A stretch of 37,908 bases of DNA from Rickettsiales bacterium (GTDB taxonomy: Bacteria; Pseudomonadota; Alphaproteobacteria; Methylaequorales; Methylaequoraceae). The translations under genes were made by a program, and so were the position numbers. Each line of letters opens with the position of its first letter. The first letter of the stretch is position 1. Below the pieces are notes generated by a model. It made no database searches. It was given only the letters and a program-made list of their open reading frames with translations, and was not told the origin of the DNA. Location of the stretch: assembly GCA_002691145.1 (NCBI GenBank), contig NZHE01000019.1, positions 1 to 37,908 of the forward strand, written 5' to 3'. Below are positions 21,928-35,133 of this stretch, one piece after another.

Positions 21928-22109
21928 TCGACTTGACTTGTACAAATAATGGTTTATCAAAACCCGCAGAAATTCTAAACGAAAGCGACAAATATATGAA
22001 AGTTGTGGTCGAAGGAACAGCCATGACTATTGAACTTTATAGGAATGAACCTAAGGGTCCTTATGTTGGTCATAAAGCAGGGTTAGAATTTAAATACCAA
22101 CCCGAATAG
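21924..22109 (+). CDS. Small conserved phage protein of unknown function
   Basis: A 61-residue protein (MIDLTCTNNGLSKPAEILNE, SDKYMKVVVEGTAMTIELYR, ending YVGHKAGLEFKYQPE). The compact beta-rich layout and the KYM-(K/R)-V-V-x-EGT phrase are of a type seen in small proteins of marine T4-like phages. It is coupled to the previous gene (ATGA) and probably shares its early promoter. Its stop codon TAG coincides with the start of a tRNA-like 3' end at 22107-22133. The protein appears to end naturally rather than being cut by that element. The function is unknown. Confidence 0.55.
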   Translation: MIDLTCTNNGLSKPAEILNESDKYMKVVVEGTAMTIELYRNEPKGPYVGHKAGLEFKYQPE

Positions 22110-22133
22110 GTTCGAATCCTAGTGGGCCGGCCA
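22107..22133 (+). other. Isolated tRNA 3' end (T arm, acceptor strand and CCA)
   Basis: The sequence GGTTCGAATCC (22109-22119) is a canonical T-loop with its stem: TAGG pairs with CCTA around the loop TTCGAAT. It is followed by an acceptor-like strand TGGGCCG, one discriminator base and CCA at 22131-22133. No proper 5' half is found: the upstream 75 bases belong to a coding gene, and only a loose GGTCC/GGGCC pairing and a hairpin TTATG-TTGGT-CATAA could be drawn, with no valid seven-base anticodon loop. It therefore looks like a tRNA-gene 3' remnant or an att-like site, not a working tRNA. Confidence 0.6.
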
Positions 22134-22134: not shown

Positions 22135-22142
22135 TATAAATA
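22135..22142 (+). promoter_or_regulatory. T4-type late promoter (TATAAATA, exact consensus)
   Basis: A perfect T4 late octamer lies one base after the CCA of the tRNA-like element and seven bases before the ATG at 22150. It opens the long run of genes with shared N-termini. Confidence 0.78.
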
Positions 22143-22149: not shown

Positions 22150-22506
22150 ATGAGAGCCAAAGAGTTTATTTTAGAAGCGGAAGACAGTGATGCAGTAAGG
22201 GAACTAGACCTTTACATCATGAACAACGAAGATCTATATAGACGTAGATTTATGCCTATCATTACTAATTTAAAAAGAAAAATTACTAAAGGCGTATACG
22301 ATCACGAATTAGCACAGAAACTTTGGATGTATCTTGTAGACGATGCCGCTAAAGAATATGTTAAGGAATTTGGCTCAACAGCAGATGACGTCAAAGATAT
22401 GTTTCCCAAAGAAACTAGAATGCAAGTTGCCAAAATCATAGCAGACAGAGAAAAAGAAAACATAGAGCAAGGGGAATACGATGTTGTTAAAGGAACTGTT
22501 TCTTAA
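22150..22506 (+). CDS. Unknown protein with T4 internal-protein-like N-terminal tag
   Basis: A 118-residue, mainly helical, charged protein. It opens MRAKEFILEAEDSDA, closely resembling the capsid-targeting sequence of T4 internal head proteins (MKTYQEFIAEA), with Glu5, the hydrophobic FIL and a possible gp21-type cleavage after Glu9. The remainder (LDLYIMNNEDLYRRRFMPII, YDHELAQKLWMYLVDDAAKE) is helical and unrecognised. It follows an exact late promoter, consistent with a head protein made late. It overlaps the next gene by 26 bases. The tag interpretation is inference from resemblance and from its recurrence in later genes. Confidence 0.6.
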   Translation: MRAKEFILEAEDSDAVRELDLYIMNNEDLYRRRFMPIITNLKRKITKGVYDHELAQKLWMYLVDDAAKEYVKEFGSTADDVKDMFPKETRMQVAKIIADREKENIEQGEYDVVKGTVS

Positions 22507-23641
22507 GGAAGACGATCGCTCAACAGCAGTTTTTGCCTTTGGTCGATTCAATCCTCCCACAATTGGTCACGATAAACTAATCCAAACTTTACTAAACACT
22601 GCTCAAAAGGCTAACGGAAAAGCATATCTTTTCCTATCTCACAAACAAAACAACAAGACAGATCCATTATCATTTGAACAAAAACAATCTTACATACAAA
22701 AATTTTATCCATCTCTAGCAGTGGGAGATGCAAATGCCAACACTATAATTAAAGCATTGCAGGTAATACAGGCCGAGGGAAGAACAAGAATAATAATGGT
22801 GGCAGGTTCAGACAGGGTTGACGAATTTGAAAAACTATTAAATCAATACAATGGTAAACCAGATAAGCAAGGCAACGATCTATACAAGTTTGATAATATT
22901 AGAGTTGTGAATGCAGGTCAAAGAGATCCTGATTCAGATGGGGTAGCAGGAGCATCTGCATCAAAGGCCAGAGAGTTAGCGGCAAAAGGCCAATATAACG
23001 AATTTGCTAGAATTATCCTTGGTGGTAATAATGGTAAAGTTATCTACGATAAAATACAAGACGCATTGGGCGTAGAGGTTGCAGAAAACAACAAAAAGTT
23101 GTATAATGAAGACATGACTGACGGTGAACCAGTAGTGTACCTCGACATGGACGGAGTCCTTGCAGACTTTTTTGGTGGTGTAGAAAACCTTTATGGGGTA
23201 TCACACTGGAAGGAACTTACAAACGATAAAACAAAAGATTTAAAACAAGAGGTCATTAATAGAATTACTGGCACAGACTTCTTTGCAACCTTGCCAAAAT
23301 TCAACAATGCAGATGCATTAATTGATATGGTCAAGAAATTTACAGGTGGAAAATTCAGCATTAACACATCTCCATTAAGAGGTGATCATGAAAATTCAGG
23401 AAAATATAAAAAAGTTTGGATATCGAACAACATTGAACAACCAGATGAAATAATTGTTACAGGTAGAAAAGAATCCTACGCAAAGGATAAGGCAACAGGT
23501 ACGCCAAACATTTTGATAGACGACAGGCCAGTAAACATACAACGTTGGCAAGGTGCGGGTGGATATGGAATATTATATCAAGCAAATAGAGATTCATTAG
23601 ATAAAGTAAAAAAAGGTCTGGAGGCTTATGGAAAGAACTAA
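22481..23641 (+). CDS. Nucleotidyltransferase fused to HAD-type phosphatase/nucleotidase
   Basis: A 386-residue two-domain protein. Residues 15-195 form a cytidylyltransferase-like domain with GRFNPPTIGH at 21-30 (T/H-x-GH), MVAGSDRVDEF at 106-116 and GASASKAREL near 157-166 (the ISSTxxR-like loop), as in NMN, pantetheine or FAD adenylyltransferases. Residues 218-386 form a HAD domain of the 5'(3')-deoxyribonucleotidase type, with DMDGVLADFF at 222-231 and LIDDRPVNI near 350. The start gives MLLKELFLKEDD, a variant of the N-terminal tag seen in neighbouring genes. The linker (LYNEDMTDGEP) has possible protease sites. A role in NAD or nucleotide metabolism is inferred; the substrate is unknown. 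Confidence 0.8.
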   Translation: MLLKELFLKEDDRSTAVFAFGRFNPPTIGHDKLIQTLLNTAQKANGKAYLFLSHKQNNKTDPLSFEQKQSYIQKFYPSLAVGDANANTIIKALQVIQAEGRTRIIMVAGSDRVDEFEKLLNQYNGKPDKQGNDLYKFDNIRVVNAGQRDPDSDGVAGASASKARELAAKGQYNEFARIILGGNNGKVIYDKIQDALGVEVAENNKKLYNEDMTDGEPVVYLDMDGVLADFFGGVENLYGVSHWKELTNDKTKDLKQEVINRITGTDFFATLPKFNNADALIDMVKKFTGGKFSINTSPLRGDHENSGKYKKVWISNNIEQPDEIIVTGRKESYAKDKATGTPNILIDDRPVNIQRWQGAGGYGILYQANRDSLDKVKKGLEAYGKN

Positions 23642-23963
23642 AGAAGAAGTAGTAAAAGATATCAAAGATGTATTACAAAAGTTTGTAGCACCTGTTGTTG
23701 ATCAACATGGCGGTGTTGTGAACTATGTTGATTTTGACAACGGTGTACTTAAACTAGAAATGAGTGGTGCCTGTTCTGGTTGTGCTGGTAGCACACAGAC
23801 TTTACAGTACGGAATAGAAAACACAATGAAACACTATGTCAAAGAAGTTACAACAATAGAAGCACAAGACGACATGAACAGTGGAGTAGACCCATATTTC
23901 ACAGATTGGCCTATGCAGGATGATATGGATATGGGAATGGACTACGACACAGACAAGGAGTAA
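23628..23963 (+). CDS. Nfu/NifU C-terminal-type Fe-S cluster scaffold
   Basis: A 111-residue protein matching the NifU C-terminal (Nfu) domain: VAPVVDQHGGVVNYVDFDNG, then LKLEMSGACSGCAGSTQTL with the cluster ligands Cys49-x-x-Cys52, then YGIENTMKHYVKEVTTIEA. Such proteins assemble or carry [4Fe-4S] clusters to target enzymes. The C-terminal 25 residues are an acidic Asp/Met-rich tail not usual in bacterial Nfu. It overlaps the nucleotidyltransferase gene by 14 bases. The window also encodes a radical SAM protein (26542), which needs a [4Fe-4S] cluster, and a diiron rubrerythrin (34172), so supporting phage-encoded metalloenzymes is a plausible job. Confidence 0.9.
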   Translation: MERTKEEVVKDIKDVLQKFVAPVVDQHGGVVNYVDFDNGVLKLEMSGACSGCAGSTQTLQYGIENTMKHYVKEVTTIEAQDDMNSGVDPYFTDWPMQDDMDMGMDYDTDKE

Positions 23964-23964
23964 T

Positions 23965-24141
23965 ATGGCAAAATACAGTGGTATCAATAGGAACTATGGT
24001 GGACCAACAGACAAATCACCTGAAGAAAAACAAAAAGAACTAGACGAACTTATGAAACAATTCCTAGCCAAAGGTGGCAAGGTAGAAAAAGTAAAAGCAC
24101 ACAAACCCACAAAAGAACAATTAAGATCATGGAAGATATAG
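23965..24141 (+). CDS. Small unknown protein
   Basis: A 58-residue Lys-rich protein (MAKYSGINRNYGGPTDKSPE, then a helical EKQKELDELMKQFLAKGGKV and a basic tail THK-like KAHKPTKEQLRSWKI). The start at 23965 is chosen because AAGGAG lies seven bases upstream and it begins just after the Nfu stop; a longer frame from 23920 would overlap Nfu. It overlaps the next gene by 13 bases. It may be a small nucleic-acid-binding or head protein given its basic charge and neighbours. No family is recognised. Confidence 0.55.
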   Translation: MAKYSGINRNYGGPTDKSPEEKQKELDELMKQFLAKGGKVEKVKAHKPTKEQLRSWKI

Positions 24142-24350
24142 AACGTTTAAAAAAACTAGCAGGCGTAAACGAACCTAAACCAGAAGAAGGATCGATGGGT
24201 GAAAATCTTTCATACACAGGAACCGAAAAAGCACAATACCAAAGAAAACATAACATACAACCGGGCACACAAGATTGGTTCAAATTATGGTTCGCAAGAC
24301 CTAAATTGACTGGGGAAAACCCAATGCCCAAAGCCAAAACTAAAAAATAA
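24129..24350 (+). CDS. Small conserved phage protein of unknown function
   Basis: A 73-residue protein: MEDIERLKKLAGVNEPKPEE, then SLTGTEKA-like SYTGTEKAQYQRKHNIQPGT and DWFKLWFARPKLTGENPMPK. The (L/I)xxLAG(V/I) opening helix and the TGTEKAxxxxxxxIxPGTxxWFxLWFxRPxLTGExP phrase are of a type seen repeatedly in T4-like marine phages, function unknown. LAGI/LAGV helices recur in this window, for example DIAKLAGIKEYE in the 31125 product. It overlaps the previous gene by 13 bases and is followed by the late promoter of the superoxide dismutase gene. Confidence 0.55.
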   Translation: MEDIERLKKLAGVNEPKPEEGSMGENLSYTGTEKAQYQRKHNIQPGTQDWFKLWFARPKLTGENPMPKAKTKK

Positions 24351-24355
24351 TTCAC

Positions 24356-24363
24356 AATAAATA
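24356..24363 (+). promoter_or_regulatory. T4-type late promoter (AATAAATA)
   Basis: AATAAATA is followed by CTCGTACT and the ATG at 24372, an eight-base spacer like those at 14412, 15370 and 32030. It places the superoxide dismutase gene under late control. Confidence 0.68.
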
Positions 24364-24371
24364 CTCGTACT

Positions 24372-25037
24372 ATGCGAGCCAAAGAATTCATTATAATGCC
24401 AGGCACTGCTGATGCGATGGGACTTGTACACAAACCCGGATTTGGACCTAACAACAGGTTTGACTTTAAAAACAAAGGTAATAACAGAGCCAACGAAGCA
24501 AGTTGTCCACGAACAAAAGCAAAAGAATGCTCTTGTAGCCAAGTAAAAAGTTTAACAGAATCAGAAGACACAATGATAGCACAATGCGAATTGATGCACA
24601 GTGACAAAGTTAAAGGCACAATATTATTGATGCAAAAAACAAACACACCAACATTAATTAAAGGCACAATAACAGGATTAGAACCAGGTGAACATGGGTT
24701 CCACATACATGAGTATGGCGATATGAGCGATGGTTGTGCTTCAATGGGAGGACATTACAATCCAGACGCTGAGGACCATGCCGGCATGGACAATGGTCAC
24801 GTAGGAGACCTAGGTAACATTACAGCAGACGAAAAAGGTGTTGCTGTTGTAAATATTAAAGCAGATAGAGTTGACCTAATGGGTGAAAGATCTGTTGTAG
24901 GCAGAGGAATAGTAGTCCATGCAGACAAAGACGATCTCGGACAAGGTGGTGATGAAGAAAGTTTAAAAACAGGTAACGCCGGCGACAGGCTAGCCTGTGG
25001 TGTTATAGTATTAAGAGGTGATAATGAAGATAAGTGA
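24372..25037 (+). CDS. Cu/Zn superoxide dismutase with N-terminal tag
   Basis: A 221-residue protein whose last 150 residues are a complete Cu/Zn superoxide dismutase. Copper ligands His111, His113 (GFHIHEYGD), His128 and His183; zinc ligands His128, His136, His143 and Asp146; the structural Cys122-Cys209 pair; and active-site Arg206 (GNAGDRLACGV) are all present. It would convert superoxide to peroxide and oxygen. It begins MRAKEFIIMPGTADA, the tag shared with the 22150 product, followed by a Cys-rich linker (SCPRTKAKECSCSQ) that has no signal-peptide character. Late promoter plus tag suggest virion packaging rather than early use in the cytoplasm; that is inference. It overlaps the next gene by 14 bases. 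Confidence 0.9.
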   Translation: MRAKEFIIMPGTADAMGLVHKPGFGPNNRFDFKNKGNNRANEASCPRTKAKECSCSQVKSLTESEDTMIAQCELMHSDKVKGTILLMQKTNTPTLIKGTITGLEPGEHGFHIHEYGDMSDGCASMGGHYNPDAEDHAGMDNGHVGDLGNITADEKGVAVVNIKADRVDLMGERSVVGRGIVVHADKDDLGQGGDEESLKTGNAGDRLACGVIVLRGDNEDK

Positions 25038-25308
25038 GATAATTTCTGAATTAAACAGGCGAGACTTTCTTAAGAAAGTAGGCAAAGGTGCGGCGGCAAC
25101 AGCGGCTTTTGGTGCCGGTGCATTAGTACCATCGACAGCATGGCCTAAAGATATACCACAGAACTTTGATTTTATGGATCAATATTTCAGTGATAAAGTT
25201 TTAAAAGATCCAAAATACCAAGAATTCAAAGACATAGGAAAAGAATTCTTGAACATGATTCAACAAATAGAAAAAAATAAAAAGCAGAAGCAAGGAATAG
25301 ACACGTGA
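25024..25308 (+). CDS. Small protein with Tat-like signal behind an N-terminal tag
   Basis: A 94-residue protein, MKISEIISELNRRDFLKKVG, followed by an Ala/Gly-rich hydrophobic stretch KGAAATAAFGAGALVPSTAW. The NRRDFLKK motif matches the twin-arginine consensus (S/T-R-R-x-F-L-K) with a hydrophobic region and a possible cleavage near residue 42. The first ten residues also fit the shared tag (Glu5, Ile6, Glu10). The start is placed at ATG 25024 rather than the GTG at 25018 because the ATG gives the tag and lies five bases after AGAGG. The mature part is helical and Lys-rich (PKYQEFKDIGKEFLNMIQQI). It overlaps the next gene as GTGA. Function unknown; Tat export is inference. Confidence 0.65.
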   Translation: MKISEIISELNRRDFLKKVGKGAAATAAFGAGALVPSTAWPKDIPQNFDFMDQYFSDKVLKDPKYQEFKDIGKEFLNMIQQIEKNKKQKQGIDT

Positions 25309-25946
25309 ACCTGACTTATGTATCTTGGCCGAGTGAACTCACGGATGCATTTTCAGAACTTGCAGGTAAGATTCTAGATAAAGAAATTGGTATAGACATT
25401 TATAAAACAGAACAAATAAAAAGTCTTACAGGAGCACCAAAAAAACATCATTATAGAAATCTCTACAAGCATGATAGCAAATGGAATAATCTTATTCCCA
25501 AAAATTATATTGCTATTTTTGACAAACATCTTGCACCTGTTATAAAAACAATATCAGAAATTAAAATATTCACATTCGACAATTATTCTAGTCTACCTTT
25601 ACACGTTGATATTGGAAGACATTGTGTAATAAATTTTCCAATAAAAATTAATAAAGAACAAAAATTGTTAGTTCTTAACAGAGAAATGCAAGAAGGAGAA
25701 ATTGACTTGTACATAGATTCCAAAGCAGATGGCACATGGAATGAAAAAAGGAATCAAAAACTAGAAAGTTTAGGTGCAGATTTAGTTGAACGTGAAATGA
25801 AACAGTGTGCAATTTTAAATACTAAAGTGTGGCACACCGTGATAAACAAAACTGCGGACGAGAGAATTCAAATAGCATTTGAACCACACAGAGATTATTA
25901 CTATAAAGATATTGTTAATCTGTTTAATGAAAACGGCTGGGTATAA
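25305..25946 (+). CDS. 2OG-Fe(II) oxygenase-like protein (copy 1)
   Basis: A 213-residue protein with the double-stranded beta-helix iron motif: His100-x-Asp102 in LHVDIGRHCVINFPI and His177 in KVWHTVI, with Arg187 (ERIQIAFE) as a probable 2-oxoglutarate anchor. These enzymes hydroxylate proteins, nucleic acids or small molecules using Fe(II), O2 and 2-oxoglutarate. The start is GTG at 25305, in a four-base overlap with the preceding stop. The next gene is a clear paralogue: H-x-D-x-GR-x-x-x-IN-x-P is kept and both end in Y-x-(K/E)-D-x-(V/I)-x-(L/F)-F-N-E-x-x-W. The substrate is unknown. Such oxygenases are frequent in marine phages. Confidence 0.75.
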   Translation: MNLTYVSWPSELTDAFSELAGKILDKEIGIDIYKTEQIKSLTGAPKKHHYRNLYKHDSKWNNLIPKNYIAIFDKHLAPVIKTISEIKIFTFDNYSSLPLHVDIGRHCVINFPIKINKEQKLLVLNREMQEGEIDLYIDSKADGTWNEKRNQKLESLGADLVEREMKQCAILNTKVWHTVINKTADERIQIAFEPHRDYYYKDIVNLFNENGWV

Positions 25947-26533
25947 TGAAAAATTACATCGAAATAAACAAACCTGATTTTATTCAAGAGATGATAGAGT
26001 TTGGCAAAATTGTTGTTGCTAATACTCCCAAGAAACACATCGTAGAGCCATGGGGTTGGCGAGCAACGACGTGGTCTGCATTCGAGGATACTTGCGAATA
26101 TTACAACGAGTGTAATGAATTGATGAAAAAATATCCATGGACAGAATACGTAAGCAGTGTAAATGTATACTGGATGAAACCGGATAAACGCCAAATGAGA
26201 GTACACAGGGATAGAGGCAGAAGGGCCGCTATAAACCTACCTGTGATAATACCCGAGGATTCATGGTTAGGCGTATCGGATTACAAATTTAACAACGAGA
26301 TAGACCCTATGGTTAGAACACCAGACGAGCAAGGACTTTCAGCACAAAAAGTAGAAGACCTAGGACATAAGTTTAACATGAAAAATGGTGTTATTATAAA
26401 TGTCAGTGCATGGCATTGGGTGAAAAATAATTCTAACAAGGAAAGGTCGATCATATCAATGGACATCAAAGAACAATACTCATACGAAGACACTATTAAA
26501 TTCTTCAATGAACTAAATTGGTGTGTAATATAA
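25946..26533 (+). CDS. 2OG-Fe(II) oxygenase-like protein (copy 2)
   Basis: A 195-residue paralogue of the preceding gene, overlapping its stop by one base. The metal and cosubstrate residues are in the same order: His87-x-Asp89 in RVHRDRGRRAAINLPV, His157 in SAWHWVKNN and Arg167 in ERSIISMD. The ending YSYEDTIKFFNELNW parallels YYYKDIVNLFNENGW of copy 1. The N-terminal half differs (PWGWRATTWSAFEDTCEYYN), so the copies have diverged in substrate-facing parts. A radical SAM gene follows nine bases later. The pair may act in sequence on one target or on two related ones; this is inference. Confidence 0.75.
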   Translation: MKNYIEINKPDFIQEMIEFGKIVVANTPKKHIVEPWGWRATTWSAFEDTCEYYNECNELMKKYPWTEYVSSVNVYWMKPDKRQMRVHRDRGRRAAINLPVIIPEDSWLGVSDYKFNNEIDPMVRTPDEQGLSAQKVEDLGHKFNMKNGVIINVSAWHWVKNNSNKERSIISMDIKEQYSYEDTIKFFNELNWCVI

Positions 26534-26541
26534 GTATTACG

Positions 26542-27771
26542 ATGCAAGACGATCTTTTCTTAAACAATGATGAAATTAAAGAGAAGCCAACCAATCCATG
26601 CTTGGCTCCACTTACTTCTTTGTATGTGACTAACAATCACCAATTTAAACCATGTTGTTGGTTTAGAAAAGAAGAAGATCCTATGCACGTTGAATACCAC
26701 AAGAGTCCTCTAAAGACTCCTATATCAGATTACAGAGAAAAGATATTGTTTCCAATGTATGAGGAGATGAAGAAAGGTAATTGGAGCAAAGGTTGTCGTA
26801 GATGTATGCTCCCAGGAAAGAAAAGATTACAAACATACGAACACCATAGAACAGAGCACGGAATAGATAATTTAGAAAAAAATAAGAAAATTTTACAATT
26901 GGATCTAAGATTTAGTATTTTATGTAACCTTGGTTGTATAATGTGCAACGCCGGATCCAGTGACCAGTTCTGGAAACACGAAGAGCAGGGCAAGTTCATG
27001 ATGGAGAGCAACTACTGGTATGGCAAAAGGACGAAACCCCAAAAAAACTTTGTAAAAAATACAAAATTTAAAAACTGGACATGGCATGAAGATGAAGACT
27101 CCATGCAGGAGATTATAGATTTATTGCCCAACCTAGAAGTAATATACATGACCGGCGGAGAACCTAGCATTAATCCAGGCGTACATAGAATTATGGAACA
27201 CTGCATCAAACACGGATACAATAAAAACATCAGACTTGAATTTAACACCAACTGCACAAACGCCAATCCTAAATTCGTAGAACTGTTAAGCCAATTTAAA
27301 ACTGACTTAATGTTTAGTATAGATGCGTATGGAAGGCTAAATGATATTATAAGATTTCCAAGTGATTTCAAAACATTAGAAAGAAATATAATAAAATTAA
27401 TAGAGGCCCAAACAGCAGGTAAGTCATATTTTTGTCCTTCTATACACGTATACAATTTTTTCAAGACCCACGAACTTGTGGAATGGATGGAGGGATTTAA
27501 AGAGCGATATGATAATGTCACCGATACTTACTACAACATAATTTTTGATCCTTTCTACATGAACATAGCAAACATACCAGAAGAGCATTTCGACAAATAT
27601 ATGCAAGAGCACGGATATAAACTACCAGAAAAACTTCGAAACAGTATACTGAACAAAAAGCATCCACACACAGACAAAGGATACGACTGGAACAAGATTA
27701 AAGATGTGGGGAAAAAATGGTTTGAAAGCAGAAAGGGTGATTTTGCTCTTACCGGGATACCCAATTTTTAA
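26542..27771 (+). CDS. Radical SAM protein with extra N-terminal Cys cluster (twitch/SPASM-like)
   Basis: A 409-residue radical SAM protein. The [4Fe-4S] motif is Cys128-x3-Cys132-x2-Cys135 (CNLGCIMC), followed by a GGEPS block (TGGEPSINP, 205-212) for S-adenosylmethionine binding, and LEFNTNCT and LMFSIDAYG as later barrel strands. The N-terminal 90 residues have Cys20, Cys38, Cys39, Cys85 and Cys88, which could hold a second cluster as in SPASM/twitch proteins, though at the opposite end from most. The start at ATG 26542 is preferred over a TTG at 26518 inside the upstream gene. No clear ribosome site. It follows the two oxygenases, suggesting a joint modification pathway; the substrate is unknown. 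It depends on Fe-S supply. Confidence 0.85.
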   Translation: MQDDLFLNNDEIKEKPTNPCLAPLTSLYVTNNHQFKPCCWFRKEEDPMHVEYHKSPLKTPISDYREKILFPMYEEMKKGNWSKGCRRCMLPGKKRLQTYEHHRTEHGIDNLEKNKKILQLDLRFSILCNLGCIMCNAGSSDQFWKHEEQGKFMMESNYWYGKRTKPQKNFVKNTKFKNWTWHEDEDSMQEIIDLLPNLEVIYMTGGEPSINPGVHRIMEHCIKHGYNKNIRLEFNTNCTNANPKFVELLSQFKTDLMFSIDAYGRLNDIIRFPSDFKTLERNIIKLIEAQTAGKSYFCPSIHVYNFFKTHELVEWMEGFKERYDNVTDTYYNIIFDPFYMNIANIPEEHFDKYMQEHGYKLPEKLRNSILNKKHPHTDKGYDWNKIKDVGKKWFESRKGDFALTGIPNF

Positions 27772-27793
27772 TCACTATTGGCTGTAAGCATAA

Positions 27794-27801
27794 GATAAGT
27801 A
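27794..27801 (+). promoter_or_regulatory. Late promoter variant (GATAAGTA)
   Basis: GATAAGTA differs from the T4 late core by one A-to-G change and lies nine bases (CATAATATT) before the ATG at 27811, near the spacing of other late promoters. It would begin the run of small basic tagged proteins. Confidence 0.45.
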
Positions 27802-27810
27802 CATAATATT

Positions 27811-28053
27811 ATGAGAATCATTGAAATATATGAATATGCAACAAAATATGCTCACCCTGATGTGGAAAAGCAACTCAAAAAGTATGAGAAAAGAGCCACA
27901 AACCGTATGAGAATGGGTTACGCACCTGGCTTTATTTCCTATCCTTTTAGAGTTAGAGAAGGTTGGAGTAAAAAATATAAAAAATCTATCAACTGCAACA
28001 ATCCAAAAGGTTTCTCACAGAAGGCCCATTGTGCAGGCAGGAAGAAAAAATGA
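27811..28053 (+). CDS. Small basic tagged protein
   Basis: An 80-residue, strongly basic protein. It begins MRIIEIYEYATKYAHPDV, fitting the shared tag (Glu5, Ile6, Glu8), and ends with a conserved-looking module GWSKKYKKSINCNNPKGFSQ and KAHCAGRKKK. That Cys-containing module recurs in many marine phage proteins, without known function. It overlaps the next gene by four bases (ATGA). The high positive charge and tag fit a DNA-binding internal head protein, by analogy with the basic internal proteins of T4. That role is inference; no catalytic motif is present. Confidence 0.6.
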   Translation: MRIIEIYEYATKYAHPDVEKQLKKYEKRATNRMRMGYAPGFISYPFRVREGWSKKYKKSINCNNPKGFSQKAHCAGRKKK

Positions 28054-28490
28054 AGATCAAAGAAATATTAGGTTTTGCAACTACCCGTCCTAGAACTACA
28101 TATAGGACTGTCAAGAAGAAACCTATAACAAAAGATTATGATCCAAGACCATTGAATCAAAGGGTGCAAGACAAGTTATCACAATACAGAAAAACAGGTA
28201 AAATGTCCAATATTAAAACAGAAGATGCGGCAGGTGTTGGAATTATTACAAAACAGAACGCAACCAAGGATGTTAAAATTGGTGATGAAAGAAAAAATGT
28301 TAAAAAATTAGGACTTGAAAATTTTGATGATGGGAAAAATCCTGGTAGAAAAGGTTTAAGTCAAAGGGTAGGTATTCCAAAAAATGCCACAATGGCGCAG
28401 TTACAAAAGGCGGCCAAGTCAGGAGGCGAGAAAGGCAGACTGGCAAGATGGCAAATAAATATGCGTAGGGGACGTAAGAAAAAGAAATGA
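28050..28490 (+). CDS. Small basic tagged protein
   Basis: A 146-residue basic protein starting MKIKEILGFATTRPRTTYRT, with the tag's Glu5 and Ile6. The true start is ATG 28050, overlapping the previous stop as ATGA; an upstream start at 28029 would add residues from an overlapping frame. The C-terminal module (GLSQRVGIPKNATMAQLQKA, then AKSGGEKGRLARWQINMRRG, ending KKKK) is of a type seen across marine phages and ends in a poly-Lys tail. The middle (DEVRKNVKKL-like GDERKNVKKLGLENFDDGKN) is Lys/Asp rich. It fits a nucleic-acid-binding or packaged head protein; no enzymatic motif. Confidence 0.6.
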   Translation: MKIKEILGFATTRPRTTYRTVKKKPITKDYDPRPLNQRVQDKLSQYRKTGKMSNIKTEDAAGVGIITKQNATKDVKIGDERKNVKKLGLENFDDGKNPGRKGLSQRVGIPKNATMAQLQKAAKSGGEKGRLARWQINMRRGRKKKK

Positions 28491-28750
28491 AGATAAACGA
28501 AGTCATAATAAGAGAATATGCCACAGACGGAGCCACTAGTGCAGGAAACGTTTCAACTGTCGTAAGTCCTCACATAGCGATAGGTAAAGATAGATTTAAA
28601 AAGTCTTATCATGGATCACCGGGTAGATCGGGAACTAAGGCTCCAAAATTACCAAAAGTTGTTCAGCCAAAAAACCCTAACGGAACTGTCAAAGGTGCTC
28701 ATGCTTTAAAAGGAGTAAATATATTTGGCGGACCAGGAATAAAAAGATGA
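28487..28750 (+). CDS. Small basic tagged protein
   Basis: An 87-residue basic protein starting MKINEVIIREYATDGATSAG, fitting the tag with Glu5 and Glu10. The rest is Lys/Gly/Pro-rich and likely extended: VSPHIAIGKDRFKKSYHGSP, then SGTKAPKLPKVVQPKNPNGT and GGPGIKR. This IGKDR-x-KKSY-x-G-x-PG module is of a type common in marine phages, function unknown. It overlaps both neighbours by four bases. The first 15 bases of the gene (ATGAAGATAAACGAA) are identical to those of the gene at 29183, so the tag is shared at the DNA level too. Confidence 0.6.
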   Translation: MKINEVIIREYATDGATSAGNVSTVVSPHIAIGKDRFKKSYHGSPGRSGTKAPKLPKVVQPKNPNGTVKGAHALKGVNIFGGPGIKR

Positions 28751-29181
28751 GATTTAAAGAATTCAACATAAAAGAAGGTGCATCAATGATGCCTTACTAC
28801 AAAGATCCAAAAGATGCAGAGGGAAAAACCTGGACATTTCCAGATGAATGGTCGAAAGATGAACCATTAGACACACCTTATATGAGCAACGCAAGTATGA
28901 GAATGTTTCTTGACACATTAGGATATGATCCAGATTTTGAAGATGCCGGTCCTGTACCAGCAAAAGAATTTATAGCAAGATCAACACAATGGTTACAAAA
29001 AAATATAGATAAGCCGTCGGCAGAGATTCCAACAACAGTTGACCAAAATCCAGGTGGACCAACTATGTATTCAGGTGGAAGACCAGAAGGACACATGAAT
29101 CAACAGATTAAAGCACACAACGAATTAGCAAGAAAAATTATAGCAAAGTATCCAGAAGTTACACATTTCGGATTTAATTAA
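28747..29181 (+). CDS. Tagged protein of unknown function
   Basis: A 144-residue protein starting MRFKEFNIKEGASMMPYYKD, fitting the tag with Glu5, Phe6 and Glu10. The body (WTFPDEWSKDEPLDTPYMSN, MRMFLDTLGYDPDFEDAGPV, ARSTQWLQKNIDKPSAEIPT) is neutral to acidic and aromatic, unlike its basic neighbours, and the phrase FLDTLGYDPDFED with an Asp/Glu patch is likely a folded domain. The C-terminus LARKIIAKYPEVTHFGFN is helical. It overlaps the upstream gene by four bases. No enzymatic motif is recognised. Confidence 0.6.
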   Translation: MRFKEFNIKEGASMMPYYKDPKDAEGKTWTFPDEWSKDEPLDTPYMSNASMRMFLDTLGYDPDFEDAGPVPAKEFIARSTQWLQKNIDKPSAEIPTTVDQNPGGPTMYSGGRPEGHMNQQIKAHNELARKIIAKYPEVTHFGFN

Positions 29182-29182
29182 T

Positions 29183-31099
29183 ATGAAGATAAACGAACTA
29201 CACAACCAACCAGTAAAACCAGACACATACGAAGCAAGTATGGCTCTAAACCAATTGCTTAAAATTGGAAAACACTCTATCAAAATCCATAACATGATCG
29301 ACGATGCCGCTGAAATGGAATCATGGGTAGCAAAAAAGATTGATCTAGCAGGTGACTATGTAAAGAAAGTCCATGGTTATATGCAAGGCGAAAAGGCTGG
29401 CCTATACGATGACGGTGGTATGACTGAAGACGCTTCTGGTTGGAAATTGGTTTCAAAAGCAAAAGATATCGCTAAAAAGATGGCGGGTAATTATACTGGT
29501 GCTGTAAAACAAATTGAAAAATTACAAAAAGATCTATCAAAAAATACTTCAGTAAAAAAAGCATTATTACAATTTAATGAAGACGCACCATTTGGCTCAG
29601 GTATGGACCTGGTAAGAATGGCTGTGATGAGGAAATTTATTTCAGCAGATGAATATGTGAACTACGCAAAAGAATTAAAAGCGGCAGGAGAGCAAGTAGA
29701 ACAAGAATATGATGACTGGCCAGAAGGTGAAGGCTTTGGATCATCAGACGGAAACTTTGCAATTAAAAGTATGATGTCGGCCGCAGGCTATGAATTTGAC
29801 GAACAAGATACAAGTGGTAGTTTTGTTGTAACGAAGATGCCTGAGAAGTTAGAAAAGATGGGCATCAAGAATGCAAGGATGAGAGACGCAGTCACAACGG
29901 AAGACGCAGGCGAGGGACACATGAGCAAAAGCACTTTGTATCACACTGCCAAGTACGCAATCGAGTTAATGGACATGATTAAAAAGGGTGACGACCTAGA
30001 GGGTTGGGTGCAGAGCAAACTGAACAAAGCGGCGGACTATTTACAGGGTGTTCACAACTACGAAGAATATCAAAAATTAAATCCATACAGAGAAGAGATA
30101 GATTCACAAACATTTGCTAAACATTCAGAAATTGTTAAAAAGAATATCGATGAAATACTAGCACGTGAAACAAAATTAGATGACATCGATACAAAACCGG
30201 GAATGATGAGAATTTTAAACAAGAGGGTGCAAGAATTTGAGAAAAAAATGGCCAAAGAAGCACGTACAGATGAATATGCAGATACTAAACCAAGAGACAT
30301 GGCACATTACAGAGAACTTATGAAAGCACTACAAGACCTTGAGAGAGATGAAAAGGTAATGACAGATCCCGTGGCAAAGGCAGAAGTGAAAAGACGTAAG
30401 TTAAAATTAATGAAGGATAAACCAACCAACGAAGACAAATATAATTTTAGAGGAAATCCTTTTCCAGTGCTAGGCAAAGCACAAAGTTATTTGGGTTATG
30501 GGGCAGAACTTGCCAAAGCAGTAATTGACAAAGACCCTAGTGCTAAAGTAAAAGCAGAAACATATCTAGATAGAGTGCCTAGTTTCATTAACACCGAAAT
30601 GAAAGAGATCATGCCAACTAATGAAAGCGGAATCATGTACAGGGCAGGAGTTAAGAAGTATGGAAAAGCAGGAATGAAGGCCATACAGAGTGCCGCTGGT
30701 AAAGGTGCCAATCATCAAGAAATAGGCAAAATAAAAGATAGATATTTAAAGGACGAAGAATTGGATGAAGGACTTAAAGATTGGGCAAGGAATTTAACTG
30801 CCGCTGGCATCATTGTTGGAGCAGTTGCGGGTCTTGGATCAATCAATAATGCAATAGACAATAGTGTACCTGCTGTCAAAGCCATGAACACTGCACTTGA
30901 AATGGCCAAAGAAAAAGGTGATACAGAATTGGCCAAAGCAATTGAAAAAGACTTGAAAGATGCAAAAATTAGACTAGACATAGGCAAGGATTTAAATCAC
31001 GTCACCTACTTACAAGACAAATACAGCAAGTTTATGCCGACAGAAGGACTGGCATACGAGTCAAAATTGGCTATTGAGTTAAATAAACGCCTTAAATAA
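29183..31099 (+). CDS. Large tagged protein with duplicated helical domain, possible internal head protein
   Basis: A 638-residue, helical, charged protein starting MKINELHNQPVKPDTYEA. A domain occurs twice: near 20-75 (LLKIGKHSIKIHNMIDDAAE, MESWVAKKIDLAGDYVKKVH) and near 250-300 (TAKYAIELMDMIKKGDDLEG, WVQSKLNKAADYLQGVHNYE). A third module around 480-520 (MYRAGVKKYGKAGMKAIQSA, AGKGANHQEIGKIKDRYLKD) is a common phage/bacterial small-protein type. The tail has one hydrophobic stretch (LTAAGIIVGAVAGLGSINN). Several (T/N)-E-(D/S/G) sites between modules (NEDAP, TEDAG, NEDKY, TEGLA) could be prohead-protease cuts. This looks like a polyprotein or beads-on-a-string head component; function unproven. 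Confidence 0.6.
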   Translation: MKINELHNQPVKPDTYEASMALNQLLKIGKHSIKIHNMIDDAAEMESWVAKKIDLAGDYVKKVHGYMQGEKAGLYDDGGMTEDASGWKLVSKAKDIAKKMAGNYTGAVKQIEKLQKDLSKNTSVKKALLQFNEDAPFGSGMDLVRMAVMRKFISADEYVNYAKELKAAGEQVEQEYDDWPEGEGFGSSDGNFAIKSMMSAAGYEFDEQDTSGSFVVTKMPEKLEKMGIKNARMRDAVTTEDAGEGHMSKSTLYHTAKYAIELMDMIKKGDDLEGWVQSKLNKAADYLQGVHNYEEYQKLNPYREEIDSQTFAKHSEIVKKNIDEILARETKLDDIDTKPGMMRILNKRVQEFEKKMAKEARTDEYADTKPRDMAHYRELMKALQDLERDEKVMTDPVAKAEVKRRKLKLMKDKPTNEDKYNFRGNPFPVLGKAQSYLGYGAELAKAVIDKDPSAKVKAETYLDRVPSFINTEMKEIMPTNESGIMYRAGVKKYGKAGMKAIQSAAGKGANHQEIGKIKDRYLKDEELDEGLKDWARNLTAAGIIVGAVAGLGSINNAIDNSVPAVKAMNTALEMAKEKGDTELAKAIEKDLKDAKIRLDIGKDLNHVTYLQDKYSKFMPTEGLAYESKLAIELNKRLK

Positions 31100-31111
31100 A
31101 ACTGTAACAAG

Positions 31112-31119
31112 ACTAAATA
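31112..31119 (+). promoter_or_regulatory. Late promoter (ACTAAATA)
   Basis: ACTAAATA contains the CTAAATA core reported for some T4-like marine phages, five bases (ATCAT) before the ATG at 31125. No ribosome site lies between, so a leaderless mRNA is likely. Confidence 0.58.
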
Positions 31120-31124
31120 ATCAT

Positions 31125-31955
31125 ATGGCACGTAACAAAAAACAAAAAGACAGCACATTTGCGGATCTAGTGGCGAGACTTAACCAGTTAAGCAACTTTT
31201 CTCCTGAGCAAGAAAGAAACTCTCTCATGGAAGCCGCATCGGCAGAACCACAAGTTTTAGATAATAAAGATGTTTCATTAGCAGATATCGCCAAGTTGGC
31301 AGGAATTAAAGAATATGAACAACCAGCATCTATTTCAAAAGACGCTGAAAAACTTGTTGATAGAATAACTCATGAAGACAAAGACGAACAAACAGAAAAA
31401 TCATCCATCACAAAAGCAATAGAGGAATCAGATGCAGATGATTCTATTTCTACAACAATCAAAAAAACAGTTACAGAAGAAGACAAAAGGTTAACAAAAA
31501 TTGCTGAACTTGAACAGCAACTCGCAGAGTTAAAAGCAGAAGAAAAAGAAGAAGCAACTTTAGACATAGAAGGATTCAAATCTAAATTTATCGAAGACGT
31601 CACTGAATATGTTAAAGAAGCAGAGGGAGAAGATTTAGTTGAACTTTACAATAAATTTTCAAACAATCAAGTTGATATGAATGAAGATTCATTTGTTATA
31701 AGCACACCAGAAACTAAAGATGTAATTGCAGATGCTGAAAAGGCTGAACAACCGGAAGAAGAAGTGGTTGTTGAGAAAGATAAAGACGAAGAAAAAGACA
31801 ACAAAGAAGAAGAAGATGATACTGGTGAAGTGCCAATGCTAGACAAAGAGTTTGATGATCAACCTAGACAAAAAGGACAACGTCTAGACGTTGGAGAAGC
31901 ACCTGTTGAAAAAGAGGACGTAAAGTTCTCAAATGACTTATCAGAGCAAAAATAG
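31125..31955 (+). CDS. Acidic coiled-coil protein, possible structural or scaffold protein
   Basis: A 276-residue, very acidic protein (Glu/Asp/Lys-rich, no Cys) with a helical N-terminal part (STFADLVARLNQLSNFSPEQ, ISLADIAKLAGI-like VSLADIAKLAGIKEYEQPAS), a coiled-coil stretch near 120-145 (LTKIAELEQQLAELKAEEKE) and an unstructured acidic C-terminus (EEVVVEKDKDEEKDNKEEED). The composition resembles scaffold or head-core proteins, but the length and motifs are not decisive. It lacks the MKxxE tag. It is driven by its own late promoter and followed by a 90-base spacer with a small hairpin. Confidence 0.55.
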   Translation: MARNKKQKDSTFADLVARLNQLSNFSPEQERNSLMEAASAEPQVLDNKDVSLADIAKLAGIKEYEQPASISKDAEKLVDRITHEDKDEQTEKSSITKAIEESDADDSISTTIKKTVTEEDKRLTKIAELEQQLAELKAEEKEEATLDIEGFKSKFIEDVTEYVKEAEGEDLVELYNKFSNNQVDMNEDSFVISTPETKDVIADAEKAEQPEEEVVVEKDKDEEKDNKEEEDDTGEVPMLDKEFDDQPRQKGQRLDVGEAPVEKEDVKFSNDLSEQK

Positions 31956-31965
31956 TCAACAATTA

Positions 31966-31979
31966 ACGCATTAGTGCGT
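31966..31979 (+). other. Short hairpin in the 31956-32045 intergenic spacer
   Basis: ACGCA (31966-31970), loop TTAG, TGCGT (31975-31979) forms a perfect five-base stem just after the 31125 gene stop. It lacks a following T run, so it is at best a weak terminator or processing site. The rest of the spacer holds nothing but the next late promoter. Confidence 0.35.
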
Positions 31980-32029
31980 ATTTCCACAATAATCAAAACC
32001 GTAGATTAAATTAGCAATAAGGCAAGTTT

Positions 32030-32037
32030 AATAAATA
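32030..32037 (+). promoter_or_regulatory. T4-type late promoter (AATAAATA)
   Basis: AATAAATA is followed by CAACTACT and the ATG at 32046, the eight-base spacing seen at 14412, 15370 and 24356. Confidence 0.68.
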
Positions 32038-32045
32038 CAACTACT

Positions 32046-32825
32046 ATGAGCGGTTCACAATTTTCATACCAAAAATATCTAGATGATGTTACTAGATTGA
32101 CCCAAAGAGGGCACGTTGACTCTGATGAACAGAAGCAAAGTCCTAACTCCGCAGGCAGTAGAGGACTACGTAAAACAGATGATTTTACTAAAGCACCAAA
32201 CCAAATGATGAAAGCAAACATGACAGAGAGTTTTAGTTTTGAAAATATGAAAGATATAATAAGCAGGATTGACGGTCTCAACGCACCTGTACAAGAAGAA
32301 CCGAAACAAAGCGACATAGATTACACAAAATTAATGCTTGACATCTCAGCAATGAAAGATAGAATAGCAGAACTACCTATAGATGATGATGCAAAAACAT
32401 CGGCACTGACAGCATTGGGACAGGTTGAAGATGACCTATCTATGGATGAACATGAGTACACACCATTTCCAGAAGGCGATGAATTTGATATAGAAGAAGA
32501 CGAAGACTTTGAAGAAGTTTTAGGTCCACTAGGTTTCCCAGAAGACGAGACAGAATTATTTGATGCAGAATACAGAGGACGAAAAGTTCCACTTAACAAA
32601 CCAATGAGAGGTGATGTCAAGAAGTTTAAAGTTTATGTAAAAGATCCAAAATCCGGAAATGTTAAAAAAGTCAACTTCGGACACGGTGGTACAAGTGCTA
32701 AAAGAAAAACCATGAGGATCAGAAAATCAAATCCTAAAGCAAGGAAAAGTTTTAGAGCACGTCACAACTGTGCAAATCCAGGTCCAAAAACAAAAGCAAG
32801 ATATTGGAGTTGTAGGAAATGGTAA
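32046..32825 (+). CDS. Protein with conserved basic C-terminal module of marine phages
   Basis: A 259-residue bipartite protein. The N-terminal 190 residues are acidic and helical (SYQKYLDDVTRLTQRGHVDS, YTKLMLDISAMKDRIAELPI, GDEFDIEEDEDFEEVLGPLG). The last 70 are strongly basic: RKVPLNKPMRGDVKKFKVYV, KDPKSGNVKKVNFGHGGTSA, then IRKSNPKARKSFRARHNCAN and PGPKTKARYWSCRKW. This C-terminal module, with the KVYVKDPKSGNVKKVNFG and FRARHNC phrases, is widespread in marine phages without known function. Two Cys residues could bind a metal. It has its own late promoter. A DNA-binding or internal virion role is likely but inferred. Confidence 0.65.
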   Translation: MSGSQFSYQKYLDDVTRLTQRGHVDSDEQKQSPNSAGSRGLRKTDDFTKAPNQMMKANMTESFSFENMKDIISRIDGLNAPVQEEPKQSDIDYTKLMLDISAMKDRIAELPIDDDAKTSALTALGQVEDDLSMDEHEYTPFPEGDEFDIEEDEDFEEVLGPLGFPEDETELFDAEYRGRKVPLNKPMRGDVKKFKVYVKDPKSGNVKKVNFGHGGTSAKRKTMRIRKSNPKARKSFRARHNCANPGPKTKARYWSCRKW

Positions 32826-33007
32826 AAGTAAACGAAGTCACAGGAATCACTGAAGAAGAATTTGAAGTGTTGGCAGAGAAAAAAGACGCCTGCTATCACA
32901 AAGTTAAATCAAGATACAAAGTTTGGCCATCCGCTTATGCTTCTGGTGCCTTAGTCCGTTGCCGAAAAGTTGGTGCGGCTAACTGGGGTAACAAAAGCAA
33001 GAAGTAA
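32819..33007 (+). CDS. Small basic tagged-like protein with conserved Cys module
   Basis: A 62-residue protein starting MVKVNEVTGITEEEF, a shifted version of the tag (one extra residue before Glu6). The rest is a conserved-looking module: KKDACYHKVKSRYKVWPSAY, ASGALVRCRKVGAANWGNKS and a KK end. The module recurs in many marine phage and some algal virus proteins; function unknown. Its two Cys residues and basic charge suggest nucleic-acid or metal binding. It overlaps both neighbours. Late expression is likely through the promoter at 32030. Confidence 0.6.
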   Translation: MVKVNEVTGITEEEFEVLAEKKDACYHKVKSRYKVWPSAYASGALVRCRKVGAANWGNKSKK

Positions 33008-33618
33008 TGAAATTTATTATTTACAATGGAAGCCTAAAGCCGGACGCTGAATCAAATACATTCGCAGTATGTAAAATGCTTCAATTGGCATTTGAAAAAT
33101 TAAATCATGAATGTGAAATTATTACATTAAGAGAATTAAATTACGAAGGTTCAACATCTGATCTTGATGATGAACTAAAACCACATCTTTTAAAAATGTT
33201 TAAAGCAGATGGTGTAGTATTTGCAACACCGATATGGTGGGGTGGACACAGTTGTCACATACAAGCAATGTTTGAAAGAATGGATCCAATATACAGTTGG
33301 GCAAAGGATAATAAATTCCAACCTTTTTATAATAAAGTATTTGGTACTTTAGTATCAGGCGGCGGAGATGGATTCCAACATATACACGGAAACTGTTTTA
33401 ATTTTGCAAGTAATTTAGGATTTACTATTCCACCACAATGTAACGTAGAATCAAAAGCACAAGGACTAGATGAAATTAAAAAGGATGATGATACTTTCAA
33501 TCAAGTTAAAAATTGTGCAATTAATATGACCACTTGGGCAAAAGTATTACAAGAAGGTAATCCAACCAAAGATGCACGACACGGTTCAGTCGATATTAAT
33601 GAAAGTTTTAATAAATGA
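33007..33618 (+). CDS. NAD(P)H-dependent FMN reductase-like flavodoxin-fold protein
   Basis: A 203-residue flavodoxin-fold protein. It starts MKFIIYNGSLKPDAESNTFA, where NGSLKPDAESNT matches the flavin phosphate-binding loop of NADPH-dependent FMN reductases, and carries VVFATPIWWGGHSCHIQAMF as the second flavin-contact segment and FGTLVSGGGDGFQHI as the third. It would pass electrons from NAD(P)H to FMN or other acceptors. It lies among small basic head-type proteins but has no tag. In this window it could support redox chemistry of the metalloenzymes (radical SAM protein, rubrerythrin), which need an electron source; that link is inference. It overlaps the next gene by four bases. Confidence 0.75.
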   Translation: MKFIIYNGSLKPDAESNTFAVCKMLQLAFEKLNHECEIITLRELNYEGSTSDLDDELKPHLLKMFKADGVVFATPIWWGGHSCHIQAMFERMDPIYSWAKDNKFQPFYNKVFGTLVSGGGDGFQHIHGNCFNFASNLGFTIPPQCNVESKAQGLDEIKKDDDTFNQVKNCAINMTTWAKVLQEGNPTKDARHGSVDINESFNK

Positions 33619-34118
33619 AAATTTTAGAAATTTTAGAAGGAACTAGATGTTGGAAAGGTTACACCAAAAAAGGAACCAAAATGCTTTTTGGAAAACGTGT
33701 ACCTAACTGCGTTAAAAATGAAAATACTTTTCAAGTTATAGATAAATTTAATGAAGTTGTATTTGAATCTCAGGATGAATCATCTGCTTTAAATTTCTTA
33801 AGAAGAAACTACAATGCTCTTTCTCAGTGCGACTTACACGAAGATTTAAGAGCCTGGTTCGGCAAAGGCAAAAAAGGTGGTGCCGGCGGAGGTGGCTGGG
33901 ACAGATATAACGCCAAAGGTGAACGTATTGGCAAGTGTGGCGATAGGGGCAAAGGTGAAGGAAAACCTAAATGTTTGTCTAAAGCCAGAGCGGCCTCATT
34001 GAGATCCAAAGGTGGTAAAAAAGCCATTGCTTCGGCAGTAAGGCGAAAACGATCAAAAGATAAAAATCCAGACAGACGTGGTAAAGCAATAAACGTTTCA
34101 AACAAATCAAAAAAATAG
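33615..34118 (+). CDS. Small basic tagged protein with Gly-rich, Cys-containing modules
   Basis: A 167-residue, strongly basic protein starting MKILEILEGTRCWKGYTKKG, fitting the tag (Glu5, Ile6, Glu8). Two conserved-looking modules follow: CWKGYTKKGTKMLFGKRVPN with a NCVKNE end, and near the C-terminus WDRYNAKGERIGKCGDRGKG, EGKPKCLSKARAASLRSKGG and KNPDRRGKAINVSNKSKK. Similar modules are widespread in marine phages. The Gly-rich stretch (GKKGGAGGGG) may be a linker. The charge and tag suggest packaged, DNA-associated protein. It overlaps the FMN reductase by four bases, and a sigma70 promoter starts at its stop codon. Confidence 0.62.
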   Translation: MKILEILEGTRCWKGYTKKGTKMLFGKRVPNCVKNENTFQVIDKFNEVVFESQDESSALNFLRRNYNALSQCDLHEDLRAWFGKGKKGGAGGGGWDRYNAKGERIGKCGDRGKGEGKPKCLSKARAASLRSKGGKKAIASAVRRKRSKDKNPDRRGKAINVSNKSKK

Positions 34119-34147
34119 TTGCATCTAGTCAAATTCTGTTATATAAT
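34119..34147 (+). promoter_or_regulatory. Host-like sigma70 promoter upstream of rubrerythrin
   Basis: TTGCAT (34119-34124) and a perfect TATAAT (34142-34147) lie 17 bases apart. The leader of about 18 bases contains AACAGGAG (34156-34163), a strong ribosome site, nine bases before ATG 34172. It is near consensus and probably early. Confidence 0.75.
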
Positions 34148-34171
34148 ACAAATATAACAGGAGAAAAAAAA

Positions 34172-34594
34172 ATGGAACTAAAAGAAAGCAAAACAGCACA
34201 AAACTTAAAAGACGCTTTTGCCGGCGAATCAATGGCTAACAGAAGATATCTATACTTTGCTCAAAAGGCAGACATAGAAGGCGCACCTGACGTGGCATCT
34301 GTATTTAGATCAACAGCAGAAGGTGAGACAGGACACGCACACGGACATCTAGAATACTTGGAAGAAGTGGGAGATCCAGCAACAGGTGAACCAATGGGTG
34401 AGACGGAACAAAATCTGTCATCGGCCATACACGGAGAGACGCACGAGTATACAGATATGTATCCAGGCATGGCTAGGACAGCCAGAGATGAAGGTTTCGA
34501 TGAAATCGCAGACTGGTTCGAAACATTAGCAAAGGCAGAAAAATCACACGCAGGTAAATTTCAAAGAACTTTAGACGCCTACAAAGGAGCATAA
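34172..34594 (+). CDS. Rubrerythrin-type diiron protein
   Basis: A 140-residue rubrerythrin-fold four-helix bundle. Iron-ligand candidates are Glu19 in [10 protein letters not shown], Glu52-x-x-His55 in [10 protein letters not shown], Glu89/Glu92 in [10 protein letters not shown] and Glu123-x-x-His126 in [10 protein letters not shown]. The C-terminal rubredoxin-like CxxC domain of classic rubrerythrin is absent, as in the shorter erythrin group. Rubrerythrins reduce hydrogen peroxide or peroxides with an external electron donor. It follows a strong sigma70-like promoter and a good ribosome site, so early, abundant expression is likely. The window also encodes superoxide dismutase, which makes its substrate peroxide. 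It is followed immediately by the DsbA-like gene. Confidence 0.88.
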
Positions 34595-34852
34595 ATGTCA
34601 GTTAGAAATTTTAATGATGCAGAAAAGCAGAAAATAATTCAAATAATATCTCAAGGTTCACAGGTACTTGGAGAAGTCGAGGATTTGAAATCCGGTCTCA
34701 AAGATACTGTGAAAGCAGTGGCGGAAGAACTTGAATTGAAACCAGCACTTATAAACAAAGCAATATCAGTGGCACACAAAGGAAACTACCAAAACATTGC
34801 CGATGATATGGATACACTTGAAAGCATACTGAACTCAGCCGGGAAATTATAA
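34595..34852 (+). CDS. dsbA: DsbA-like dsDNA-binding late-transcription protein (T4 type)
   Basis: An 85-residue helical protein (KQKIIQIISQGSQVLGEVED, LKSGLKDTVKAVAEELELKP, ALINKAISVAHKGNYQNIAD). The layout of an N-terminal helix, a central (E/D)-L-x-(V/L)-x-x-x-x-(I/F)-N-(K/R) segment, then an H-K-x-N phrase and a C-terminal helix matches T4 DsbA (89 residues), a double-stranded DNA-binding protein that modulates late transcription. The name refers to dsDNA binding, not the thiol oxidase. In T4 dsbA is near genes 33, 59 and 32. It is co-transcribed with rubrerythrin here and overlaps the next gene (TAATG). The identification is by resemblance of a small helical protein and is not certain. 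Confidence 0.55.
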   Translation: MSVRNFNDAEKQKIIQIISQGSQVLGEVEDLKSGLKDTVKAVAEELELKPALINKAISVAHKGNYQNIADDMDTLESILNSAGKL

Positions 34853-35133
34853 TGTTGAAATTACTCAAAGAATTTTGGGTAAGCAGTTATAAGTCAGACA
34901 AATTATCATTTTGGTTTGAGTTGGTTTCGGTATCGTTTACCATTGCAGGATCTTGCTTCTTGACATTTACTTCGCCTAATCCTATAATGAGTATAGTGTT
35001 TCCCCTTTACTTGGTAGGGTCAAGCACTTTGCTAGTTGCGGCAATTAGACGTAGGCAAATCTGGTTATGTACTTTGACTGCTTGGTTTACACTAATGAAT
35101 ATAATTGGCAATTTGAAAGTATTTGTATTTTAA
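34852..35133 (+). CDS. Small membrane protein
   Basis: A 93-residue protein with predicted transmembrane segments at about 22-40 (ELVSVSFTIAGSCFLTF), 45-65 (IMSIVFPLYLVGSSTLLVAAI) and 70-90 (IWLCTLTAWFTLMNIIGNL). It resembles the 84-residue membrane protein after gp44 (11839) in size, Trp content and layout, and may be distantly related. It overlaps its upstream neighbour by one base and the next gene by one base (TAATG). The inner membrane is the likely location; function unknown. Confidence 0.55.
   Translation: MLKLLKEFWVSSYKSDKLSFWFELVSVSFTIAGSCFLTFTSPNPIMSIVFPLYLVGSSTLLVAAIRRRQIWLCTLTAWFTLMNIIGNLKVFVF

Follow-up and report, generated by a model that had tools for sequence, protein, structure and literature searches.

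Why do so many otherwise unrelated proteins of one phage-like locus begin with nearly the same residues? The window (here the whole 37,908 nt of contig NZHE01000019.1, from assembly GCA_002691145.1 of a Rickettsiales bacterium) encodes ten such proteins between 22 and 34 kb. The initial annotation had likened their shared start to the capsid-targeting sequence of phage T4. This likeness is supported by conservation of the junction between tag and body, by matches to T4 tags, by a gp21-type head protease, by a matching junction in the capsid protein gp23 and by tagged orthologs detected in virions. We conclude that the 22-34 kb region is very probably an internal-head-protein module of a T4-like marine phage, in which cargo proteins carry targeting propeptides cut by gp21. 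At least six products, named here by the start positions of their genes, have a propeptide ending in a predicted gp21-type site (22150, 22481, 25024, 28487, 28747 and 33615), and 32819 probably does as well.

Shared starts and conserved junctions

The ten N-termini quoted in the initial annotation all read exactly as given there. For 25024, the open reading frame (ORF) listing starts at a GTG two codons upstream, and the ATG start is present. Of the 21 genes with starts between 22.0 and 34.2 kb, 10 open with the motif M-x-x-x-E-[ILVFMY]; among the 31 window genes outside the module it opens 2, one of which is a mis-called start. At non-start ATGs of the same strand it occurs in 6 of 471 cases (1.3%; binomial p=2e-12), and 5000 trials with residues 2-20 shuffled gave a mean of 1.4 matches and a maximum of 7. 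The motif is thus more frequent than at random AT-rich ORF starts. The products in question are listed below (aa, amino acids; a slash marks the predicted cut).

22150..22506, + strand: tagged protein, 118 aa; tag MRAKEFILE/ at 22150-22176; relatives covering this end keep F-[IVL]-x-E (MRASQFITE/A, MRASQFIKE/N)
22481..23641, + strand: tagged fusion of a cytidylyltransferase/NMNAT-like domain and an NT5C-type HAD domain, 386 aa; tag MLLKELFLKE/ at 22481-22510
24372..25037, + strand: Cu/Zn superoxide dismutase fused to a small ORF; start MRAKEFIIMP, without a cut site
25024..25308, + strand: 94 aa protein; tag MKISEIISE/ at 25024-25050, then a twin-arginine-type signal, NRRDFLKK
27811..28053, + strand: basic protein (+16); tag-like start MRIIEIYE/, site not kept in relatives
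28050..28490, + strand: basic protein (+27); tag-like start MKIKEILGF, without a cut site
28487..28750, + strand: tagged basic protein, 87 aa; tag MKINEVIIRE/ at 28487-28516
28747..29181, + strand: tagged protein, 144 aa; tag MRFKEFNIKE/ at 28747-28776
29183..31099, + strand: multi-domain protein, 638 aa; start MKINELHNQP, without a cut site beside the tag
32819..33007, + strand: basic Cys protein with a DACYHKVKSRY domain, 62 aa; hydrophobic-x-E at LAE/K, tag part at 32819-32878
33615..34118, + strand: tagged basic protein (+26) with CWKGY and LRxWF-type domains; tag MKILEILE/ at 33615-33638

A short N-terminal peptide is therefore common to unrelated bodies. Across our comparison set of 51 related loci from IMG/VR, which includes a 196 kb relative (G001), the conserved feature is a hydrophobic-x-Glu where tag meets body, rather than Glu at position 5. 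Glu5 had been taken as the key residue; relatives carry Gln or Asp there, and 11 of 14 forms of the 22150 family have Gln, which rules it out as the defining residue. In five families the tag is swapped or lengthened and the junction is kept. The 14 forms of 22150 follow MRASQFI[KTSNI]E/[NAQG], in which residues 2, 3, 6 and 9 are invariant, residue 7 is I, V or L and residue 8 is free (entropy 2.35 bits). Junctions of the 28487 family read MKINEVIIRE/Y, MKINEVIIRRVQE/Q, MKIREILSTRVDE/Y and MRIRDIISE/V, each followed by ATxGATSAGN or a close variant. The 28747 family retains [IV]-x-E/GA behind quite different tags (MRAQEFIRE/GAEM, MKVNEVLRE/GADF, MRFHEFKSEINE/GADF, MEPRQDLTDGEIQE/GAEM). Comparable variation is found in the 33615 family (MKVNEILE/GTRCWKGY, MRASEIITE/KCWKGY, MKHGAINPNYDLNALVDE/GTRCWKGY) and the 22481 family (MLLKELFLKE/D, MLITEIVE/A, MLNFREYLKE/E). 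Since tag sequence and length vary while the junction is fixed, the pattern is that of a protease site.

The site is conserved in 22150, 22481, 28487, 28747, 33615 and, as LAE/K, in 32819. It is present in 25024, for which one relative besides the same phage was found; here the cut-site tag directly abuts the twin-arginine-type signal (LNRRDFLKKVGKGAAATAAFGAGAL), and a packaged protein would, once cut, present an export signal. The proposal that all ten products are processed cargo is not supported: 24372, 28050 and 29183 lack a hydrophobic-x-Glu after the tag and are not counted as members of the T4-type capsid-targeting class, and 27811 does not conserve its site. Nor is the superoxide dismutase supported as a simple tagged cargo in the window, where its tag is without a site and its gene is a fusion. 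The small ORF in front of it (IIMPGTADAMGL...) is a separate gene in relatives, whose own dismutase gene carries the tag MRAQEFTE/TSCPRTK. A survey of 61 gene clusters in the related loci found only six that are tagged in at least half of their members; five are module families (22481 in two forms, 28487, 32819 and 33615) and one is absent from the window.

Head genes, T4 tags and cyanophage virions

Another contig of the same bin, C10, encodes a Peptidase_S77 protein (34388-35017) and gp23 (36124-37302). In G001 these head genes and the tag module lie together on one contig. The peptidase of C10 and G001 is similar to T4 gp21 (5jbl_A), as befits a cognate protease. It has GEVDHP and GVSSRG at positions where the solved 5jbl_A chain has Ala residues, which we read as inactivating mutations.

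The same junction type occurs in the major capsid protein of the phage itself. The G001 gp23 junction, KYLSE/QATAGATSAGNVATL, nearly equals VQE/QATAGATSAGNIATV of the 28487 family, and the 15 residues behind the 28487 tag match the expected mature gp23 N-terminus. Compared with C10 gp23, the 28487 product scores 59, a value that shuffles reach in 2 of 2000 cases; the runner-up window protein scores 33 against the same gp23 stretch. T4 gp23 is known to be cut at FLTE/AEIG, and by its position relative to that cut the KYLSE/ site is probably where the marine gp23 is processed.

The window tags resemble the starts of several T4 proteins, as first suggested for the internal head proteins. MKINEVIIRE, MRAKEFILE and MLLKELFLKE compare with MAKINELLRE of gp24, MKTYQEFIAE of IPII and IPIII, and MELITELFDE of Alt. 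The T4 gp21 motif is L/I-x-E, and a site of this type closes the peptide and is conserved in six of the families. A position matrix trained on marine tags only and scored over 276 T4 proteins placed five of ten T4 head-protease substrates in the top 12 (p=1.4e-5), namely gp22, which ranked first, Alt, gp24, IPII and IPIII. Significance is confined to how these known substrates rank; across the T4 proteome as a whole, matrix counts were not above shuffled ones. In T4 IPIII, targeting depends on residues 4 and 7 and processing on residues 8 and 10, and with Asp at position 10 targeting persists while processing is lost. The site-less starts of 24372, 28050 and 29183 could therefore still target.

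Orthologs of the window enzyme were detected in purified cyanophage virions. The ortholog of 22481 was found in virions of S-SM1 (cytidylyltransferase T4-GC190; PMC3037559), S-CREM2 (PMC10665884) and, under the name NMNAT, S-SCSM1 (PMC9602691). Cyanophage orthologs align with 22481 from residue 12, directly behind the tag. All 80 of 80 cyanophage homologs from IMG/VR begin with MKKFSAFL[STNID]E/A or a close variant (F-L-x-E/A), and the S-SCSM1 protein begins with MKSFLQFLKE/A.

We applied a T4-derived pattern, F[ILVFM]xE within residues 2-12, to the 217 proteins of S-CREM2. Six fit; five of these were detected in virions, and no known structural component is among them. The five are a SAM (S-adenosylmethionine) hydrolase (MKDFDSFLEE), a kinase (MKRFDAFLTE), the cytidylyltransferase (MKNFSSFLTE), gp13 (MKDLHSFLTE) and gp136 (MQTFSMFFSE). 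Tag and virion detection are associated (Fisher p=0.003, and 0.0002 for non-structural virion proteins against undetected proteins). A loose count of [ILVFM]-x-E near gene starts was discarded as a poor separator of virion proteins (S-CREM2 p=0.07; 55 of 276 proteins in T4); the three-residue site carries too little information by itself, so that the entire tag has to be used. The motif also occurs, at residues 18-25, in a Cas9-like nuclease of the S-CREM2 virion. In S-SCSM1 (L254), the 69 aa virion protein gp93 (31626-31835) carries a tag-like ...RTFKEFLEYIE at its C-terminus.

Some cyanophages chain in one protein the basic domains that the window encodes as separate tagged genes, as in Syn9 gp114, S-E7 GC0119 and P-TIM68. 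Virion-detected gp160 of S-CREM2 contains the domains of both 33615 and 32819. A hydrophobic-x-Glu directly precedes the DACY domain in 80% of unique junctions (33% in shuffles), the CWxGY domain in 85% (23%) and the AAWT domain in 68% (22%). In G001, the protein at 158836 likewise holds the 28747 domain behind ELNRITKLAGLGE/ within a longer chain. A blind scan of IMG/VR with a DNA pattern for MKxFxxF[LF]xEA alone gave at least 80 matches. Among the matches listed, 72 of 80 are open frames of at least 40 aa, mostly cytidylyltransferases; ten others that were examined include two basic-domain proteins (phrog_727), a kinase-like protein, one with weak likeness to peptidases, and DUF6267 and DUF192 proteins. 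Searching by the tag alone thus leads back to both cargo families seen in the window.

The surrounding locus

The window is contig C13 of a bin of 29 contigs (2.03 Mb). Its layout is that of a T4-like marine phage stretch, with structural proteins at the start, then small enzymes, then the module. Megablast of the window DNA against phages gave no match. A copy of window positions 28000-30000, 100% as reported, lies on a second contig (G000:C22:5959-7959); the bin therefore holds two assemblies of the phage. We dropped a host call from named bins because relatives sit in three bins of differing groups, named Betaproteobacteria, Verrucomicrobia and Pelagibacter.

Just upstream of the first tagged gene, 22109-22133 (ggttcgaatcctagtgggccggcca) resembles the 3' half of a tRNA; ARAGORN predicted none, neither in the window nor in 15 relatives. 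A scan for T4 late promoters found a single TATAAATA in the window (22135-22142, 7 bases upstream of the ATG at 22150), a count below chance expectation and unusable as evidence. Untagged genes are interspersed with the tagged ones (23628-27768 and 33007-34594) and encode NifU-like, radical SAM, hydroxylase-like, FMN reductase and rubrerythrin proteins. A second recurring motif, [ILM]xxLAG[IVL], is found at the C-terminus of the scaffold protein (SIRQLAGIN; gp22-like C-terminus in L064) and in several module proteins, including those at 24129-24350 and 31125-31955 of the window. It occurs 7 times in G001 proteins against 0.8 in shuffles and is possibly a core-binding motif.

Alternative explanations and known systems

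AT-rich genomes commonly show Lys or Arg as the second residue and A-rich second codons. The shared start could accordingly reflect the composition of gene starts or a translation-start preference, as these two traits of the tags would be expected. The motif counts already refute such an effect, given the 1.3% at other ATGs, the failure of shuffles and the scarcity of the motif in the rest of the window (2 of 31 genes), and composition does not account for a fixed Glu and a fixed hydrophobic residue two before it around a variable residue; we regard this explanation as very improbable. The tag might instead be a leader spread by recombination with another role, such as a chaperone or degradation signal or membrane binding, and tag swapping among bodies indeed shows mobility, not function. 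The junction nearly identical to that of gp23, the likeness to T4 gp21 substrates and the detection of tagged orthologs in virions make such a leader improbable.

A more serious alternative, still unlikely in our judgement, is that the propeptide serves core assembly only, and that the tagged products belong to the scaffold or core, as gp22, gp67 and gp68 do, and are cut, largely lost and never delivered. The products at 29183 and 31125 do resemble long multi-domain or acidic core proteins, and gp22 tops the marine-matrix ranking. However, tagged enzymes (cytidylyltransferase, SAM hydrolase, kinase) occur in mature virions, and the bodies behind the cut are intact domains. Several points also weigh against an internal-head-protein module. 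Detection in cyanophage particles concerns orthologs and domains from phages other than that of the window, and contamination could account for part of it, as the authors of the S-CREM2 and S-SCSM1 studies state. Because the head genes are on contigs other than that of the window, binning and G001 are what links C10 to it. The site-less 24372, 28050 and 29183 and the non-conserving 27811 may be targeted but uncut, or unrelated.

If the region is an internal-head-protein module, a propeptide of about 8-20 residues would dock each protein into the prohead scaffold core. The gp21 protease would cut after Glu and free the cargo inside the head before DNA filling, and at the next infection the cargo would exit together with the DNA. 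It would comprise the NMNAT/cytidylyltransferase-nucleotidase enzyme, small basic Cys-containing proteins, which may bind or condense DNA, and further proteins. Packaging is well supported through the orthologs. Docking on the scaffold in this phage is presumed, cutting is predicted from the conserved sites, injection would follow the example of T4 IPI-III and Alt, and tasks in the host are conjectural.

We further lean towards a wider reading, in which the tag serves marine T4-like phages in general (Kyanoviridae and their relatives) as an address of virion cargo that can be read from sequence. It would come in two exchangeable designs, separate tagged proteins or a chained protein cut internally by the head protease. 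If this is true, genomes alone, including those of uncultured ocean phages, would suffice for listing the enzymes that are injected (NMNAT-like, SAM hydrolase, kinase, superoxide dismutase, Cas9-like nuclease), and what these do in the first minutes after infection would become testable. Cyanophage virion papers report particle enzymes and cannot tell packaged from contaminant, a question on which the tag and head-protease site bear. It would also extend a natural cargo-loading code beyond the T-even group and add a likely processed-polyprotein version.

A literature search joining 'capsid targeting' with 'cyanophage', which did not cover subscription journals, found only a T4 review. The module is very probably a T4-type capsid-targeting system, of a kind apparently not yet described for marine T4-like phages; its cargo set is new, larger and contains enzymes, and there is a polyprotein alternative to it. 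Like T4 IPI, IPII, IPIII and Alt (Mullaney and Black; PMC9026906), it places unrelated bodies behind one N-terminal peptide of about 10 residues, hydrophobics followed by an L/I-x-E site for gp21. Unlike T4, it has more tagged families, its cargo includes enzymes and basic Cys proteins, and its tags come in two flavours, gp24-like (MKINE..RE) and IPIII-like (MRASQFITE), some with longer spacers. The cyanophage cytidylyltransferase/NMNAT, kinase and SAM hydrolase of S-SM1, S-CREM2 and S-SCSM1 share a T4-type tag and virion detection, the first being orthologous to the window enzyme, which differs in its fusion to an NT5C-type HAD domain; the accessible parts of those papers do not mention the tag. 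Syn9 gp114 and phrog_727 share the basic Cys domains, chained with hydrophobic-x-E at their borders, whereas those of the window are separate and tagged. The DarB packaging signal of phage P1 (PMC9024508) is also N-terminal and brings a protein into the head, with another sequence. The propeptides of SPN3US and phiKZ (PMC5694885) are N-terminal head-entry signals cut after Glu as well, but those of the giant phages are mostly much longer, and the SPN3US site is A-x-E.

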